Source: an uncultured Bacillota bacterium (GTDB lineage: Bacteria; Bacillota; Dethiobacteria; DTU022; UBA8154). From it: a DNA stretch of 58,659 nt. Positions 49,826-58,659 of the stretch are shown here, one piece after another. Positions within the stretch are counted from its first letter, which is position 1. The number at the start of each line of letters is the position of its first letter. Under the pieces are notes generated by a model that was not told the origin of the DNA, searched no databases, and was given only the letters and a program-made list of their open reading frames with translations. The stretch spans positions 1 to 58,659 of the forward strand of contig CALJJZ010000025.1 in the NCBI GenBank assembly GCA_937973635.1. The letters are read 5' to 3'. A program made the translations under genes and the position numbers.

Positions 49826-50440
49826 TTATTCCATGCTGGCTGTAACTACTAGACGGTAGGACGGATCCCGGCTGTAGAGGGGATGGCAGGTGACCAGGGC
49901 CAGGCAGTAGCCGCTCTCCCCGGCGCGGGGCAGGGATACCTCCTCGGGCCTGGCAATTTTCTTCTCTTTTACGGCGTAGCGGTATACCCCATCCCGCGTC
50001 CGCAGCAGGACCTCGTCCCCCTCCGCCAGCTCGTCCAGGCGGTTGAACTGCATGCCGTAGTTGTGGCTGCGGTGGGCGGTGATCACTGCCCAGCCCGCCT
50101 CCCCCGGAAGTGCCCACCCCGGTAGCAGGGCCGCGCTCCGGCGCAGGTTGGCCCGGGTTGCCCCCATATAGACGGGGATCTCCAGGTCGATGGGGAGGAT
50201 CAGCAACACAGCCAGGGGCTCCGCTCCACCCGGGGCGGGCCGCTTTGCTCCTTCTGCCGCCCACCGCTCCGAAAGCGGGGAAGAAAGAGCCTCCATTTCC
50301 GCCGCCTCTTCCGCCGGGAAGGAGGCCACCCACTGCTCCAGGACGGCCGCCTGCCGCTGCATATAATATAGGCGCTGCGCCTGGGGATAGAAGATTGCCA
50401 GCACCTCCAGTAGGAGGAGCAGCAAGGACAATATACGCAT
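49826..50440 (-). CDS. Sortase
   Basis: 204 residues. A hydrophobic N-terminal anchor (LSLLLLLLEVLAIFYP) is followed by the sortase barrel with catalytic H123 (ITAHRSHNYG), C185 (LVTCHPL) and R196 (SYRLVV). It has one N-terminal membrane segment and none at the C-terminus, so it is not a typical class C pilus sortase; the class is unresolved. Its neighbour upstream carries an LPRTG sorting signal and is the obvious substrate. It would join that protein to peptidoglycan or to fibre subunits outside the membrane. Confidence 0.9.
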   Translation of the reverse strand: MRILSLLLLLLEVLAIFYPQAQRLYYMQRQAAVLEQWVASFPAEEAAEMEALSSPLSERWAAEGAKRPAPGGAEPLAVLLILPIDLEIPVYMGATRANLRRSAALLPGWALPGEAGWAVITAHRSHNYGMQFNRLDELAEGDEVLLRTRDGVYRYAVKEKKIARPEEVSLPRAGESGYCLALVTCHPLYSRDPSYRLVVTASME

Positions 50441-50450
50441 TTTCTATCCC

Positions 50451-51569
50451 TTACCTTTTTGGCACCTTTCCCGTTCCCCTGCTCTTTAAGCCCAGCAGCA
50501 TTCCCGCCAGCAGTAGCAGCGCGCCAGCGCCGTAGTAGTAATAAGGGGGCAGCTCGCCGGTGCGGGGCAGGCCGGGCACCGCCGGCGCCGCCGGCTCCAC
50601 GGTAAGCTCTTCCTCACCGGGAGGCGGGGGTAGCCCAGGCAGCCCGGGAGGCACAGTCGGCACCTCCACCAGCCCCTCTTCCTGCCGGTTGCCGAAATAT
50701 ATACTCTTGCTCTCGCCTGCGGCCAGCACCAGCGTCAGCTCTGCCGGCGTGGTGGGCTCCCACCCTTCCCGCAGGGCTTCGGCCACGGTGTAAAGGCCGG
50801 GATCAACCAACAGGTTGTTGACGGGCGTGGCGTACTCCCGGCCGTTGATCAGCACCACCCAGCCGGCAATCTCCGGCTCGCCCGCATCCCAGAGGCCTTC
50901 GCCGTTTAAGTCATGGAACTTGTGCACGCTGAGCGCAGCGCTGGCAGTAAAGGTGGGCACATCCGGCTGCTCCGTTGCCTCCTCCTCCGTGCCCGGCGGC
51001 GGGGTGCAGCTGCTGCGGAACTTGAAGACGACGCTTACGGAGGCGCCCTGGTACGCGTTGCCCACAGCAGGGCCGTCGAGATGAGCAATGACATCGATGC
51101 GCTGCTGGGCGTTGCCGGCCAGCGCACCCATGTTTAATTCGCTGAACTGGGAGAGGAAGCCGTCGAATAAGACCTGGTTATCGCGCCTGACAGTGAGCTG
51201 CAGCACTTCCTCCAGGAAATGGCCCGGCTGCTCCCGGTAAGAGCCGCGGGTACGGCTTACGATCTCGATGTCCATCCAGTAATTAAGGGGCGCCTCCTTG
51301 ATGTTTCTGGCGATAAGGTAGGAGGACTTGTTGTCGCCGGGGTTGAGGTTGCCCGTGTGCACCGGCTCGTCCGAAACCTCCACCACCAGGCCGCAGTTGC
51401 TGCTGTCCACCACCACGGCAAAGGAGCCGCGCGCCCCCGTAAGCAGGAGCAGCGTCACAGTAAGCAGTGTTACCAGGACAGTAAACAAGGATACGGCTCC
51501 CTGCAGTAGAATATTTTTTTGACTTTTAGACCGCCCTGCGCGGCGTTCTGTTCCTTCGTTCCTGTCCAT
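50451..51569 (-). CDS. LPXTG-anchored surface protein with TasA-like and SdrD B-like domains
   Basis: 372 residues. An N-terminal membrane segment (about 22-45) is followed by a TasA/CalY-like beta domain (HTGNLNPGDNKSSYLIARN, NYWMDIEIVSRTRG; about 55-185), a Thr/Pro linker, an SdrD B-like repeat (VHKFHDLNGEGLWDAGEPEI, GWVVLINGREYATPV), a Pro-rich stretch, LPRTG at 334-338, a membrane segment and a basic tail. This is the standard layout for sortase attachment. It links a TasA-type module to the cell wall, a plausible anchor for a matrix fibre. Upstream site is AAAGGAG at about 14 bases. Confidence 0.9.
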   Translation of the reverse strand: MDRNEGTERRAGRSKSQKNILLQGAVSLFTVLVTLLTVTLLLLTGARGSFAVVVDSSNCGLVVEVSDEPVHTGNLNPGDNKSSYLIARNIKEAPLNYWMDIEIVSRTRGSYREQPGHFLEEVLQLTVRRDNQVLFDGFLSQFSELNMGALAGNAQQRIDVIAHLDGPAVGNAYQGASVSVVFKFRSSCTPPPGTEEEATEQPDVPTFTASAALSVHKFHDLNGEGLWDAGEPEIAGWVVLINGREYATPVNNLLVDPGLYTVAEALREGWEPTTPAELTLVLAAGESKSIYFGNRQEEGLVEVPTVPPGLPGLPPPPGEEELTVEPAAPAVPGLPRTGELPPYYYYGAGALLLLAGMLLGLKSRGTGKVPKR

Positions 51570-51711: not shown

Positions 51712-52938
51712 TTAAGGGCTGTTGGGATACCCCTGCCAGTTAAACACCGGATCCTGGTAGGCGTTGTTGGAGGCCTGGATAGCCTCTACCTCGGCACTGA
51801 GCAAAAAAGGTGCCGCCTGATATTCGTTCCCCGTCTCCAGGCCGCTCAGGCAGACCAGCACGCAGAGAGGCGGCGTGGTCTCGCCGGGGGCCAGCACGCC
51901 CTTGTAATAGAAAACGTTGCCTATCCTCTGCCAGTGAGCATTTTCCGGATCGCCGCTGCAGAGTTTGAAGCTCACTACAGAGGCATCCTGCTCCCCGTCC
52001 CAGGCGCCGCTCAGGACAATGCGCACGTACTGGCTCTTGGTGCCTGTGTTGCGGGCGCGGTAACGGGCCATATCGCAGTCGCCGGGGTTCCAGTTGTTCT
52101 GGTAGTTGGAAGCCAGGTCTCCGAACATCTTGTCGCTCTTATAAAACCAGGTCCTGTTTCCGGTAGCAGGATCCACCGTGTACCAGTTATAATCCCGCGT
52201 GACCGTCCCATAGAGCACCCCGTCGGCGCCAAAAGCGAGCTGCATGTTTTTGGCAGTTCCCGACGTTTCTGTATAAACCCCCGTGTAGACGTTGTAGGTG
52301 AAGAAGATCTGGGGGCCGGAGAAGGTGCTGCCGTAGATGACCCCGTCGCGCATATCCAGGGCGATGTCGCCGAACTGGAAGCTGCGCTTATAATTGCCGG
52401 TAAAATCCTGACGGTGCAGGCTCACCTGGTCGATGGTCCCGTCGGCTTTAAAACTGATCTTGTAGAGATCGTCGGTGCCTTCTCTGACAAACCAGTAATG
52501 GCCCAGGCCGAAGGTGGAGTTCCATATACTGGTATTAGCGGCAAAAACTTCTCCCGCATAATTGTTCCCTGTGCCGTTGTTGAAGTCGTAGAAATACAGG
52601 CGTCCAATGCCGTCAGCGTAGTAAAAGCACCTGTTTTTGCAGTCAAAGGCTAGGGCATTGAGGTCATTTTTGCCGGTGTCGAACAATTTGGCGTAGCTCA
52701 CCACCCCGTTCTCGATAAAGATTTCGTAGAGGGGGCGGGGGAGATGGGCGTTTACACCTTCAAAGAACTCCACGCCGTAGATCACGGTGCCGCTGCCTTC
52801 CACCAACACAGTCCCGCCGGTGAATTCTGCCTGCCCGGCCGTGCCGCCGGAGGTAAACCAGGCCATGGTGGCCCCGCCAACCAGGGAGGCGGCGAGCGCC
52901 ACCACCAGCGTCGCTCATTTTATTCTCCTTATCAGCAT
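51712..52938 (-). pseudogene. TasA-like secreted protein with inserted beta-propeller; in-frame stop near the start
   Basis: From ATG 52938 (AAAGGAGG nine bases upstream) the frame reads MLIRRIK, TGA (52917-52915), then ATLVVALAASLVGGATMAWFTS, the SipW-type signal peptide seen in its paralogue. Past the stop it is open for about 400 codons. A first TasA strand is followed by about 190 residues with repeated propeller-like units (LAFDCKNRCFYYADGIGRLYFY, DIALDMRDGVIYGSTF, FGADGVLYGTVTRDYNWYTV), then the second half of the TasA fold (NWNPGDCDMARYRARNTGT, LAPGETTPPLCVLVCL). One C-to-T change of CGA would create the stop. Alternatively translation begins at a GTG at 52905 without a good site, giving a shortened signal peptide. 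Confidence 0.7.
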
Positions 52939-53021
52939 CTCCGCAAACCTCCTTTCCTGGAGAATCAGCGCACGCCCGCCTACTGCGGCAGGCGCACGCC
53001 AATTAAACATTTTAAACATTT

Positions 53022-53789
53022 TTAGGGCATCGCCTGTTTGTTAAGCTGAGCGACCAGCCAGTTATAGTGCCAGTTTCCAAAATTCTCCTTGAAGTCGTTG
53101 AGGGCATCGACGTTAACCTGGGTTGCATCGACGGTAAAGCTGAGCTGAACGGGGCTGGCCTTGTCGCCCTGATAGTCGTTATCGGTACCCTTGTAGAAGC
53201 CGAACTGCACCGTAAGTTTGTACTTGTAGCCCGGCTTTAAAGCGCCCATATGCTCATAGGGAGGGGCGACGCCCATGCCGTTATTGTCAAGCCAATGGCG
53301 GAGCTGGACAACGGGGAAAGGAAGCTGGGCCGCCAGAAAATCGTACCAATCCAGATAAAGGCCGGAGCCTACGCCGTTCGTAATAAACTGATCCATTGGT
53401 TCCCAGTCTGCACCTTGCGGGCTTTTGAATTCCATTTTCATCATGTGGATATAGATGCCGTCAAGCAATTTATCATTCTTCTCTCCGTCTAGAAGTGTGG
53501 CCTCCCAGTTGCCAAACCAGGCCAGGTTTTTGGTCCCTGTGTTTTCGATGATAATTTCAATTTCGTCATAGACATCGCCGGGGGTCATGTTGCCGTGTTT
53601 GGACGCATCAGGCAACAAATCTTGGAAAGTCTGCAACCCTTTGCTCACATCCACAACCAAAGTCCCCGCCGTAAAGACAGCCGGCCCACCGGCAGTGTCC
53701 TGACTTGTAAACCACGCCATCGTGGCGCCGCCGATCACCGCGGCCACCAGGGCGATCACCAGCATGCTGAGCATCATCCTGCTTTTCAT
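53022..53789 (-). CDS. TasA-like secreted protein (SipW-dependent signal peptide)
   Basis: 255 residues, intact. The signal peptide (MKSRMMLSMLVIALVAAVIGGATMAWFTS) has the AWFTS-type SipW recognition region; the mature part follows the TasA/CalY plan: FTAGTLVVDVSKG, NMTPGDVYDEIEIIIENTGTKN, the loops, and VQLSFTVDATQVNVDALND. TasA proteins form amyloid-like matrix fibres. GGAGG precedes the ATG, and a c-di-GMP-I riboswitch lies directly upstream. Confidence 0.88.
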   Translation of the reverse strand: MKSRMMLSMLVIALVAAVIGGATMAWFTSQDTAGGPAVFTAGTLVVDVSKGLQTFQDLLPDASKHGNMTPGDVYDEIEIIIENTGTKNLAWFGNWEATLLDGEKNDKLLDGIYIHMMKMEFKSPQGADWEPMDQFITNGVGSGLYLDWYDFLAAQLPFPVVQLRHWLDNNGMGVAPPYEHMGALKPGYKYKLTVQFGFYKGTDNDYQGDKASPVQLSFTVDATQVNVDALNDFKENFGNWHYNWLVAQLNKQAMP

Positions 53790-53854
53790 TTGCTTAAACC
53801 TCCTGCTGATCTTTTAATTTTAATCGGGATAATATTTTCAGGAAATCTACCCCT

Positions 53855-53940
53855 CTGCGGCGGCCAGGCTGTCTTATTTAAAAGGCCCTGTAGCTTTGCG
53901 TCGCCGGCTTGCGCCGGGTTTGCCCTTCGCGCATGACCTG
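53855..53940 (-). ncRNA. c-di-GMP-I (GEMM) riboswitch
   Basis: The minus strand contains the class I core in order: GGTCATGCGCGAAGGGCAAACC, a hairpin GGCGCAAGCC, GACGCAAAGC, CAGGGCC, and GACAGCCTGGCCGCC. It lies about 65 bases before the TasA-like gene at 53789. After the aptamer GGGGTA and TATCCC could pair, but there is no U-tract, so control may be translational. Boundaries are approximate. The remaining 53941-54036 has no other feature. Confidence 0.9.
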
Positions 53941-54036
53941 CACCATCTTCTGGGCATCTAGGCGGCTATGCTGTTTTGTCGGGCACCAACTCCTTTTTAT
54001 ATTAATCTTTTAACCAAAAATTGCCGCGCAAAAAAT

Positions 54037-55062
54037 CTAGAAACCCTGCAGGCAGGGGAGATTTTCTCCCCAGTAATTGCGCACCGCCTCCGGCAGGGCC
54101 TGCACCCCTTCTGCGGAAAGCCGCACCGTGTAGAAGCCGGCCTTCTGCGGGCAGCCGGTGAGGCAGAGCTTTACCTCCTGCCCCGGCGCCACGGGCGTGC
54201 GGCAGTAGTACCAGTAGCCGTCGGCCGCATTGTACTCCCAGGCAAAGGCGCAGTCGCACGGGGACCAGCTTACCCCCGCCTCTGCGGCCGCAGGCCCCTC
54301 TCCCACCACTATGGCGTGGGCAGCGAGGTAAAGCGTAGAGGCGCCGGCCCAGTCGTAGCTGCGCCCTTTAAGGGCCCCGGCCGGGTACATCCCTTGCAGG
54401 GGGAGGGCAAAGGTGTACGTATCCAGCAGCGGGTCGAGCCCGGCGGTAAAGGGGAAGCGCCCCGACACGGGCTGCCCGCCCGGCGTTTGGGGAATGAGGG
54501 TCAAAGCGTCGGCCACAGCCAGGTGGAGCTCGGCCATCTGTCACCCGCCGCCGGTGGAGTAGCGGACGAAGAGAGAGGGGATGGAGCCGCTTAGGCCCTC
54601 CCAGACCTCCACCCTCCCCGCCTCAATGTGCTGCCCGACCAGCAGGCGCACGCACAGGGGGTTGTTTTCGCCGTAACTGCCCTTTCCTTTGGGGCAGGTA
54701 AAATACATGGCCCAGCTGCTTTGGCTGCCGACGAAGGGCGTCTCTTCGCCCCGGGCCGACTCAGCGGGACCGGTCTCCTGCAGGGTTTCCACCAGTTTGG
54801 CGCGCAGGAAGAGGCGTTTAGTACCGGTATTTTTCATCACCCAGCTAAAATCGCGGCAGCCTTCCTCCCCGCCGATTTCCCATTGGTATGCAGCGGGATC
54901 GGCCTCTTCCCCTGTGATCGCCAGGTCGAGGGTGCCCACGCGGAAAGCGGTTGTCTCCGGCAGCGTCTGCCGGGCGGTAAACCAGGCTGCAGTAGTGCCA
55001 ACAATGACCAGGATGGCAACCAGAAAAAGAGTAAACAGGGCGGCGGCTATTCTCAGTTTCAT
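54037..55062 (-). pseudogene. TasA-like secreted protein split by an in-frame TGA
   Basis: ATG 55062 (GAGGAGG upstream) opens a 173-codon frame: signal peptide MKLRIAAALFTLFLVAILVIVGTTAAWFT, then a TasA-like domain (DFSWVMKNTGTKRLFLRAKLV), ending at TGA 54543-54541 after VRYSTGGG. The same frame continues directly as QMAELHLAVADALTLIPQT and runs 166 more codons to 54037, with DTYTFALPL and LYLAAHAIVV. The junction GGG-stop-QMAELHLAV falls inside one domain where relatives carry GGW followed by a helix, so TGG to TGA is likely. No new ribosome-binding site precedes the second half. Confidence 0.8.
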
Positions 55063-55068
55063 TGCACA

Positions 55069-55848
55069 TCATGCCTCCTCGGAAAAGGATTCGCCCTTTG
55101 CTTTCAGCTTGCGTCCTTTCTCCTCTTCCCACTGGGCGGCCAGGCGGAAAAGGTTGCGCAGCTCAAAAACTAGAATTAATACCCCCGGAATAAAAACCAG
55201 GGTGATAATGCCCGTTTTGCTCTGACCGAAGCTCAGGAGGTAGCCGGCATAGGGAATGGTATAGACAACCTGCCCCACAATGTTTTCCGGGTAAACAGCC
55301 TGGTGATCATCAACCTGGTTGGCGTCGCCCCGGGTGGTGAAGCTGAGCGCCTCCCCGTAGCCATGCACAGCCATGACATGGTGGGTAGTAAGGTTGGCAC
55401 TGCCCCCTACGGAGCGGTAGGTAATAATATCCCCCGCAGTCACCTTTGCCGGATCTACAGGCCTGAGCAAAGCCAAGCTGCCCGCCTCGAAGGTCGGGGT
55501 CATGCTGCCGCCCTGCACGATGTACAACTGGTAACCGGCCAGGGAAGGCGACTCACCCGTAAAGCGGCTCTGCACCATGGTAAAAACAAGGAATACCATG
55601 GCACCTAGCAGCAGTGCAAAAAGGGTATTGCCCAGGAAGTTGGCCAGTCTCCTCAGCAAAGCAGTTTTTTTTCTTTCTGCCGCTTTGGCTGCCGCCGCCC
55701 CCTGCCGCCGGAGTTCCCAGCATTCCCCGCCGTTGTTTGCTGCAGATGCCGGAAGCCCGTTGTCGGCGCCTGCGTCTGTGCTCTTTTCCCTCACCGGGCA
55801 ACCTGGCTTTGCTTCACGCTTTATTGCTTCCATTTCCCGCACCTTCAT
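55069..55848 (-). CDS. sipW: Signal peptidase I, SipW type
   Basis: 259 residues. A long polar N-terminal extension (about 70 residues) precedes a membrane segment (LFALLLGAMVFLVFTMV), the catalytic serine in GGSMTPTF, and the histidine of the ER/archaeal type (TTHHVMAVHG) in place of the usual lysine; a second membrane segment follows (IITLVFIPGVLILVFELRNLF). SipW removes signal peptides of TasA and TapA in B. subtilis. Gene order, between a secreted protein and a TasA-like gene, copies tapA-sipW-tasA. Start may be ATG 55848 or 55833. Confidence 0.93.
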   Translation of the reverse strand: MKVREMEAIKREAKPGCPVREKSTDAGADNGLPASAANNGGECWELRRQGAAAAKAAERKKTALLRRLANFLGNTLFALLLGAMVFLVFTMVQSRFTGESPSLAGYQLYIVQGGSMTPTFEAGSLALLRPVDPAKVTAGDIITYRSVGGSANLTTHHVMAVHGYGEALSFTTRGDANQVDDHQAVYPENIVGQVVYTIPYAGYLLSFGQSKTGIITLVFIPGVLILVFELRNLFRLAAQWEEEKGRKLKAKGESFSEEA

Positions 55849-55852
55849 TCAG

Positions 55853-57181
55853 TTAATCAACTCCCGTGGGCTTCTCTGCCCCCGCAGTGTCTTCTGCTCC
55901 CCTTTCCCCGCAGTCGCCAGCTCCAGGAACTTTGCCGCCATCGCCATCGTCCCCGTCGTCTTCATCCCGGGAAACGCTTTCTTCCGCCCCTTTGTCTTCC
56001 TCTTCTTCCTCCTTGCCGGAGGCCAGAGCTTCCAGATGGGGCGGCGCTGCTGCAGTTTCAGCCGTTTCAGCACAGGAGTTTTCATCCATTCCCCCCGTGT
56101 CGCAGTTTTCCCCATCTTTTGCAGCTAACGGGGGCGTAGGCCCGGCTGTTGCCTGACCAGCCTGGCTCCCTCCATCCTCCTGCGCATCACCTTCCTCTCC
56201 GGGCAGGGGGACAGTAATTTCAAGCTGCGGACAGGGCTGGATATCAATCTCCCTGGCACCTGTAAGCAGGCGGCCCCGGTTTTCCACGCTAGCCTGCAAA
56301 AGTACTCTTTCGCCCACAGCCTGATACTCGGCCTGCACTTCACCCGTTTGTTCGTCTACGCTGACGCCGGCAGGGGCGCCATCCAGGGACCAGCTTGCCT
56401 CTGCCAGTATTTCGCCGTCCTCGTCTACAGCTATATATTTATGGCTTGCCATTTCTCCGGGAGCGACAAAAATAATAGCGGGGCCCACAATCGTTACCGT
56501 CTGCCGTACCGTATGCTTATGTTCCCATTCATTTTTCCCCATCAGATTAATATCCGTTTCACCGCTGAAAGCAAAGACAGTGCCGTCTTCCCTGTACCCT
56601 TCGCCGGAAACAGCCAGGGTAATATAAGGAGAAAGGGCAGGAGAAGCTTGGAACCAGCTCCAGATGGGCAGCAGCTCAAAAGAGGCCGCCAGGATTGCAC
56701 CGTCTCTTACTCCCTGCAGGGCAAAGATAAAACGGTCACCGTAATGCAGCTTTACAGAAGGAATAAAAAATTCTTCTACACGGAAATCCCTATCTTAAAT
56801 GACAATCAGGGCCTCCACGGTCTCCCCGGGCAGGGGTAAAGGCAGACCGCCTGAAAAAACGCCGTCGCCGCCATCCTGGGAGGTCTGCGCCGTTAGCCCT
56901 GTTCCACTGTCAGCATCAGAAGACGGCATTACTTCAACGGATACCCCTTCCTCTCGCTCCTGTTCCTCAAAAAGAAAGGGCCTGCTGAAAGAAAGACCAG
57001 CCGCAACGCTGCGCACTTCATCTTTCTGAAAAATGAAGAAAGTAAGGCCGGCCGACTCTCGGGGGCTTTCTGTAGCAAAATAGGCAAGGATCTGGGGCAC
57101 CCTGCCAACAACAACGAGCAGTAAAAAAGTAAGCAGCAGGGCCGCAAGTTTCCAGGCCAGCTTACGAATAATTTTTTTCAT
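55853..57181 (-). pseudogene. Large secreted protein in tapA position, split by an in-frame TAA
   Basis: ATG 57181 (AAGGAGGGAG upstream) starts MKKIIRKLAWKLAALLLTF with a signal peptide (GRVPQILAYFATES) and reads to TAA 56797-56795 after VEALIVI. The frame then continues without break as DRDFRVEEFFIPSVKLHYG through an Ig-like bacterial domain (VAPGEMASHKYIAVDEDGE, WSLDGAPAGVSVDEQTGEVQ) to a very acidic, low-complexity C-terminus at 55853. VEALIVI-stop-DRDFRVEE reads as one strand pair. The total would be about 442 residues. It sits where TapA is in B. subtilis, upstream of sipW, but does not resemble TapA closely. Confidence 0.7.
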
Positions 57182-57274
57182 TCTCTCCCTCCTTGCCCGT
57201 ATGCGCCGGTGCCGGCACAGGCGACGCTGCAGTTTCGTCATCTTCTCCACCTTATTCAGCCTTTATTTAGCCTT

Positions 57275-57547
57275 TTAAGCCTCTACACAATCGGCATGCC
57301 TTTGGTCTGACTTTTTTCCCCGTTCACCTTGCCAGGAGCGGGCAAGCTGGTCGGCCTCGGGCATCCCCGCCTCCTCCAGCGCCGCCTGGATAAGCATAAG
57401 CAGTTCCAGGCAACTCCGGAAGACCTTTTTCTTATCCCCCGCAAGCCAGTGGAGCTCGCCCTGCCAGCTGCTATGCTAGCAGAAAAGGATCTTGAGGTAA
57501 AAATCCTGGCTGCGCCCTCTCAAGGCGTTATAATTGCTCTCTTTCAT
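57275..57547 (-). pseudogene. Small unknown protein with an in-frame TAG
   Basis: From ATG 57547 the frame reads MKESNYNALRGRSQDFYLKILFC, TAG (57478-57476), then HSSWQGELHWLAGDKKKV, FRSCLELLMLIQAALEEAGM, PEADQLARSWQGERG, to a TAA at 57275. The second part has the composition of a helical protein. The frame is also open upstream to a TGA near 57628. No family is recognised and no strong ribosome-binding site is seen, so it may be a decayed gene. Confidence 0.4.
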
Positions 57548-57656
57548 CTGCCCAATCAGTCTTTTTCCCCGGCGGTAAGATCCAACAGCCGGTGTCAAAA
57601 GCTGGCTCGATCATATCACCACGTGAGTACAACGCCGTTTCATTGCTATTTCAGCT

Positions 57657-57685
57657 GCGTTACAACTGTATGATTATTTTGTCAA
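57657..57685 (-). promoter_or_regulatory. Possible promoter in the 57548-57745 gap
   Basis: A perfect TTGACA on the minus strand (57685-57680) has, at 17 bases, only TAACGC as -10. Weak; the gap holds no other recognised element. Confidence 0.25.
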
Positions 57686-57745
57686 TTTGTGTCGGCAGAC
57701 TCTCGCACACTGTGGATAAAATTTTGTGCAACGCCGCGGCAAAGT

Positions 57746-57777
57746 ACATAAAAAGCCGCCGCTTTTTTGGGCGGCGG
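57746..57777 (-). terminator. Intrinsic terminator after the BTAD regulator
   Basis: CCGCCGC/GCGGCGG stem (57771-57777 and 57756-57762), followed on the minus strand by CTTTTTATG. Confidence 0.85.
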
Positions 57778-57801
57778 TCCTTTGCCGTCGGGGAAAAGAT
57801 C

Positions 57802-58659
57802 TCAAGCAATTTCCAGCGGTAAACCGGGAAGGATACTGGCGCGCAGGTCCGTCCCCTTTTGCTGCTGCTCCCGTCTGTAGCGCTCACGGATCCTTTGCAG
57901 CATCTTTTTCATCTGGATGGTGCTCATACCCACAAGCAAAAGGACAAACTGGCTTTCTCCCAGCTTGCAGACTACGTCTCCCCGGCGCAAGTTGGCTAAA
58001 AGAATCTGCTCGAGCTGACCCGCCAGTTTTTGCCGTTCTGCCAGCGGCAGCAGCAGTAATCCATTTGTCGCCGGCATCAACATGACCACATGCACGCCTT
58101 TGTCCGATCTTTCCGCCCGCCGCAGTTCCAGCTTGTAAATAAACCGAAAGAAATCGGCTTCACAGTAAAAGGCCCCTCCGGCTTCGTCCGTTTCTTCCAG
58201 CAGCTGCCGTAGTCCGGTAAAGTCCGGGCAGGCGCTTTCGTCCGCCCTTGTGATGGCCAGGTAAACCTGTCGCAGGGCAAAGGATGGCCTGACACCGACC
58301 TCCCGGTAAAGGACCAGCGTGATGTATTCGTAATGGGCGCGTGCCTGGGCTGCCCTGTTCAGCTTAAACAGTGCCTCCAGGTAACGGAGGTGCAGTTCTT
58401 CTTCATACGGCTCGATCAGGAAAGCCTGTTCCAGTACATTGATAAGCTCGCTATAGCCGCCGGTAATGTCTTAAAATGTCTGTAAAAAGTAAAATAAGGC
58501 TTGGGCTTCAAAGGTGGCAATATCCCATAAACCACCGCCCCTGTAACGAAGGGACAGAAAGGAGCCCAGACCTATGTCCAGGATACCACCAAGTGCCCGT
58601 ATTGCACAAGCTATTTCAGACTTTTTTACTAACGGGATTAGTGAAAACAATGATGTAAA
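57802..58659 (-). pseudogene. BTAD-domain regulator with degenerate GGDEF-like end (partial, in-frame stop)
   Basis: The minus strand is open from the window edge to TAA 58473-58471 (62 codons, ending ALFYFLQTF) and then in the same frame for 222 codons to 57802. The second part has the bacterial transcriptional activator domain (NVLEQAFLIEPYEEELHLRY, ARAHYEYITLVLYREVGVRPSF), a linker, and about 95 residues (RRGDVVCKLGESQFVLLLVG) like a degenerate GGDEF domain. The expected N-terminal OmpR-type HTH would be beyond the window or missing. It probably controls the matrix cluster downstream. Whether the 62-codon upstream part belongs to the same protein is uncertain. Confidence 0.6.

Follow-up and report, generated by a model that had tools for sequence, protein, structure and literature searches.

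In an uncultured environmental bacterium, a gene cluster for a SipW-dependent biofilm matrix has probably undergone recent pseudogenization, with disruption of its conserved regulator by an insertion sequence. Here, we report the analysis of a 58,659-nucleotide window that covers contig C25 in full, one of the 98 contigs of a 2.56-Mb draft genome (2.5% contamination). Recent loss is the best reading because an insertion sequence truncates the regulator and four other genes carry nonsense codons, and it is the best supported of the options named in the original prediction, as relatives are intact and the stops occur only in this cluster within the sampled genome. It would be a clear case of matrix loss in such an organism, with the broken genes still recognizable and some neighbors intact, and one of ordinary gene loss, not of an unusual genetic code.

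Four nonsense codons and one insertion-sequence junction

All five stop codons of the original prediction (52915, 54541, 56795, 57476, and 58471) are present on the minus strand at those positions. They had been taken as equal, which is wrong; there are two kinds, namely, four in-frame nonsense codons within single genes and one insertion-sequence junction (58471). The frames, described as open on both sides of every stop, are open and homologous on both sides at 52915, 54541, 56795, and 57476; coding continuity fails at 58471, where the upstream side is the end of the insertion sequence. Origin by a single transition is possible, though conjectural, at 52915 and 56795 and does not apply to 58471. 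The chance of open frames so long on both sides was 4e-8, 1e-6, and 5e-9 at three sites and 0.012 (only weakly unlikely) at 57476, where the nonsense call rests on homology. At all four nonsense sites, the stop is premature where intact homologues in relatives have sense codons and continue, and the halves are not separate proteins in those relatives.

The gene at 51712..52938 (minus strand) encodes a protein with a SipW-type signal peptide and a propeller-like domain, and its TGA (52915..52917) is codon 8, inside the signal peptide. Intact homologues in G070 (same order; PWGO01000174, MAG T1Sed10_174R1; 431 amino acids [aa]) and G003 (same genus, the closest relative with the cluster in a scan of public genomes that also yielded G070; SLRC01000038, Syntrophomonadaceae MAG CSSed165cm_560; about 450 aa) align through the stop in a single open frame, with a sense codon at the site (the G003 proteins in the alignment have Leu or Phe). 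The start is the ATG at 52938, which has a strong ribosome-binding sequence upstream (AAAGGAGG) and yields a signal peptide of the usual length. A frameshift reading, starting from an ATG with its own AAGGAG that overlaps the TGA (ATGA), was rejected, as it leaves the signal peptide about six residues too short. Propeller-type proteins of the relatives score above the cut-off of TIGR04088; the structure model (pLDDT 64, modest confidence) supports only a propeller-like fold at most. The propeller-like domain lies within a secreted SipW-type matrix-type protein both in the window (51712-52905) and at L188 3698-4990.

The gene for a BsaA-like SipW-dependent protein (54037..55062, minus strand) is broken by TGA at 54541..54543, and its intact homologues in G003 (53% identical), G070 (44%), and G066 (39%), the three closest, have a single open frame through the site with Trp in place of the stop. 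The protein scored 24.1 bits against the BsaA family TIGR04090, below the curated cut-off of 60 bits. A TAG in the G070 homologue, suspected to mirror 54541, was set aside, as it lies at the very C terminus and trims about two residues only.

Upstream of sipW, TAA at 56795..56797 interrupts a gene (55853..57250, minus strand; likely start, ATG at 57241) whose product is of unknown family and is either secreted or in the membrane. Homologues in G012 (intact, 684 aa) and G096 are each a single open frame through the site and have Glu there; farther homologues have Lys or Gln. The fourth broken gene (57278..57547, minus strand; start, ATG at 57547) encodes a small protein that neighbors a BTAD regulator across the class, and its TAG (57476..57478) aligns within a single open frame in 37 homologues, mostly at Gln but also at Lys, Arg, Glu, Cys, and others. 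Of 98 genomes of the class, 32 carry this small-protein family (motif SWQGxIQWLxGxKxxxFRSxLE), which often occurs in tandem and beside a BTAD regulator and matched no Pfam or NCBIfam family. Stops flagged in the small proteins of relatives fell outside genes in the readable cases.

The truncated regulator and its insertion sequence

The left end of an IS256/Mutator-type insertion sequence occupies 58460..58659 (plus strand) and includes the TAA at 58471-58473. Three other contigs of the same genome hold copies of this repeat, which share a start point within a few bases: C43 (90%) and C49 (98% over 61 bp) at the contig end, and C46 (77%) internally. The transposase starts at ATG 58574 on the plus strand, reads MSRIPPSARIAQAISDFFTNGISENNDV, and belongs to the Mutator family. 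Likeness to IS256/Mutator elements lies in the match of the C43 copy to the Transposase_mut profile (PF00872; E=1.1e-26); the C46 copy has a candidate, imperfect terminal inverted repeat (21-bp inverted end pair at 90%). The window holds the first 200 bases of the element, and neither its right end nor a target duplication was seen. Short-read assemblies break inside repeats, and C25, C43, and C49 all terminate within this one. The TAA at 58471 thus belongs to the end of the insertion sequence, and what stays open upstream of this stop is not regulator sequence; a blast alignment to L015 that appeared to carry the BTAD protein across 58471 had run into insertion-sequence DNA and was discarded as spurious. 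Such apparent stops are a trap when raw contigs are read near their ends.

The BTAD-type regulator (PF03704 and PF00990) is represented by a C-terminal half with a degenerate GGDEF-like end (57802..58459, minus strand), compared with about 400 to 450 aa in intact homologues. The missing N-terminal half was sought in the rest of the assembly and was not found, the profile search returning weak hits of 15 to 24 bits only. As the contig ends inside the repeat, no more than the C-terminal half of the regulator is left here. The C-terminal domain (57802-58100) resembles GGDEF and carries a degenerate motif (GESQF; homologues have similar ones); its sequence suggests a c-di-GMP-linked but inactive domain.

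The regulator and the small protein adjoin in 30 of 33 contigs of relatives, and 10 contigs with either or both also hold matrix-type genes; the regulator is therefore plausibly the cluster's own. In relatives, this BTAD-type protein and its small partner stand beside sipW and secreted matrix-type substrates, and we infer that the regulator activates the cluster. Here, the IS256/Mutator-type insertion has cut it in two, leaving only the C-terminal half in the assembly, and the nonsense codons end translation early in four further genes. Regulator loss may have relaxed selection on the rest of the cluster, and the cell would make the complete matrix in small amounts or not at all.

Insertion sequences also occur naturally in the sipW operon of Clostridium perfringens SM101, a precedent in which far less BsaA is made (PMC7395162). 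The sipW-bsaABCRSD operon of C. perfringens likewise combines SipW with BsaA-type secreted matrix proteins, but its regulator is a two-component system, whereas the linked regulator here is BTAD-type (PMC7395162). The present cluster differs further in having the insertion sequence in the regulator and nonsense codons in four genes and in falling below the BsaA family cut-off.

Intact genes and a riboswitch

As originally described, four genes are intact, namely, those for the SipW peptidase, one TasA-like protein, the LPXTG protein, and the sortase. All are on the minus strand: the sortase at 49826..50440 (PF04203; E=1e-24), the LPXTG-anchored surface protein at 50451..51569 (LPRTG near the C terminus; G003 and G070 have homologues, with the cluster order preserved), the TasA-like SipW-dependent protein at 53022..53789 (PF12389; TIGR04088 above cut-off), and the SipW-type signal peptidase I at 55069..55848 (TIGR02228 above cut-off; NF046067 E=6e-39, below the curated cut-off). 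The SipW-type peptidase adjoins substrates with SipW-type signal peptides, which identifies the locus as a SipW-dependent matrix cluster, and G070 has an intact cluster in the order found here (sipW, BsaA-like, TasA-like, propeller-type, LPXTG, and sortase). The tapA-sipW-tasA operon of Bacillus subtilis likewise pairs a SipW-type signal peptidase with a TasA-like substrate bearing a SipW-type signal peptide; unlike that operon, no TapA was identified here, propeller-type, LPXTG, and sortase genes are added, and the TasA-like protein reached only 18.6 bits against the TasA equivalog NF046066 (curated cut-off, 450 bits), over residues 1 to 48 only.

The intact TasA-like gene is preceded, at a distance of 66 bases, by a c-di-GMP-I riboswitch aptamer (53855..53934, minus strand; RF01051, 51.9 bits, cut-off 35; RF03167, 54.3 bits, cut-off 59). 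The riboswitch, in its GGC variant, occurs at the equivalent position in G003 (L009 1687-1768) and G070 (L071 2536-2612), as well as on two matrix contigs (L160 and L161); a literature search found no paper tying a c-di-GMP-I riboswitch to TasA-like genes. Together, the riboswitch ahead of the TasA-like gene and the pair formed by the regulator and the small protein point toward a circuit that controls the matrix. With a riboswitch of its own, the TasA-like gene may still be in use; it, sipW, the LPXTG gene, and the sortase gene look usable, and part of the surface structure may remain.

Weighing the explanations

To place the stops in the wider genome, 400 kb from contigs C2, C17, C29, and C35 was scanned for coding potential together with the window (about 450 kb in total), and sites were judged partly by profile search and partly by family recognition. 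A strict rule returned 30 same-frame stop sites, including two in the cluster (54541 and 56795) and one that is the normal boundary between sipW and the BsaA-like gene; the remainder were normal gene ends or adjacent gene pairs, bar one probable selenocysteine TGA. The scan is insensitive to short genes, as 57476 passes only a looser version and 52915 is invisible to it. No other gene broken by a terminating stop was seen in the roughly 450 kb, and the stops are limited to this cluster within the sampled genome.

This concentration bears on the possibility that the assembly, which is of metagenome type, contains consensus errors or mixed strains at the four nonsense sites and that the genes are intact in the cell. 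The genome is a multicontig draft with 2.5% contamination, the cluster lies near a contig end, and all four changes are substitutions without indels, like short-read consensus errors. However, random error would hardly place four stops in about 5 kb and none in the rest of the sample, the stops extend 5.7 kb inward from the contig end, and the insertion-sequence disruption is an independent sign of damage; we regard error or strain mixture as unlikely. That each stop marks a genuine gene boundary, with the halves being separate proteins with their own starts, is very unlikely. An ATG directly after 54541 (TGA CAG ATG) could permit reinitiation, but homologues are single proteins through every site, the downstream halves at 54541 and 56795 would be without an N-terminal signal or membrane segment, and 56795 and 57476 have no start soon after the stop.

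Conservation at the protein level continues past each stop, as it would if a suppressor tRNA, selenocysteine insertion, or leaky termination yielded full-length matrix proteins, and the genome encodes a tRNA-Sec (UCA) on C27. Against this stand the use of three different stop codons, each of which also terminates normal genes, both in the window and in the sampled contigs, and the sense codons of relatives at the sites, so that the stops are not common to them. The check for suppressor tRNAs put forward with the original prediction found, among 42 tRNAs, none with a UAA- or UAG-reading anticodon, the sole UGA reader being tRNA-Sec. A selenoprotein at 54541 was rejected, since the closest homologues have Trp, not Cys or Sec, and no unusual hairpin follows the site (fold z=-0.41). 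Nonsense suppression is left unsupported, and we consider stop codon read-through in any form highly improbable. Even harder to credit is the idea that the stops are maintained and regulated in this species, with leaky termination in a particular state gating full-length matrix production.

Recent loss, the preferred reading, has points against it as well. Four neighboring genes are still intact. The inactivating changes comprise four nonsense codons and zero frameshifts; neutral decay normally yields frameshifts too (general mutation spectra), and their lack, somewhat unexpected, speaks against neutral decay. Four nonsense events should also come with about 90 to 160 substitutions, an expectation that only a close relative would allow to be checked. 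Counts of unique changes in broken versus intact homologues (36 versus 34 for the 54541 protein and 38 versus 63 for the 52915 protein) suggest that the broken proteins are not accelerated, which is consistent with recent loss. The test is a rough guide only and reflects paralogue choice as well as rate, as the intact TasA-like protein has more unique changes (44 versus 13).

Two further TGA codons came to light elsewhere in the sampled contigs. A URO-D family gene (G000:C29:24624; L172 3679-4758) has an in-frame TGA at a conserved Cys (LAPG*DMP) that is probably selenocysteine, with the tRNA-Sec at C27:43265. At G000:C35:295-1833 (L175), Cas4 and Csa1 domains lie in one frame through a TGA and were read as adjacent genes.
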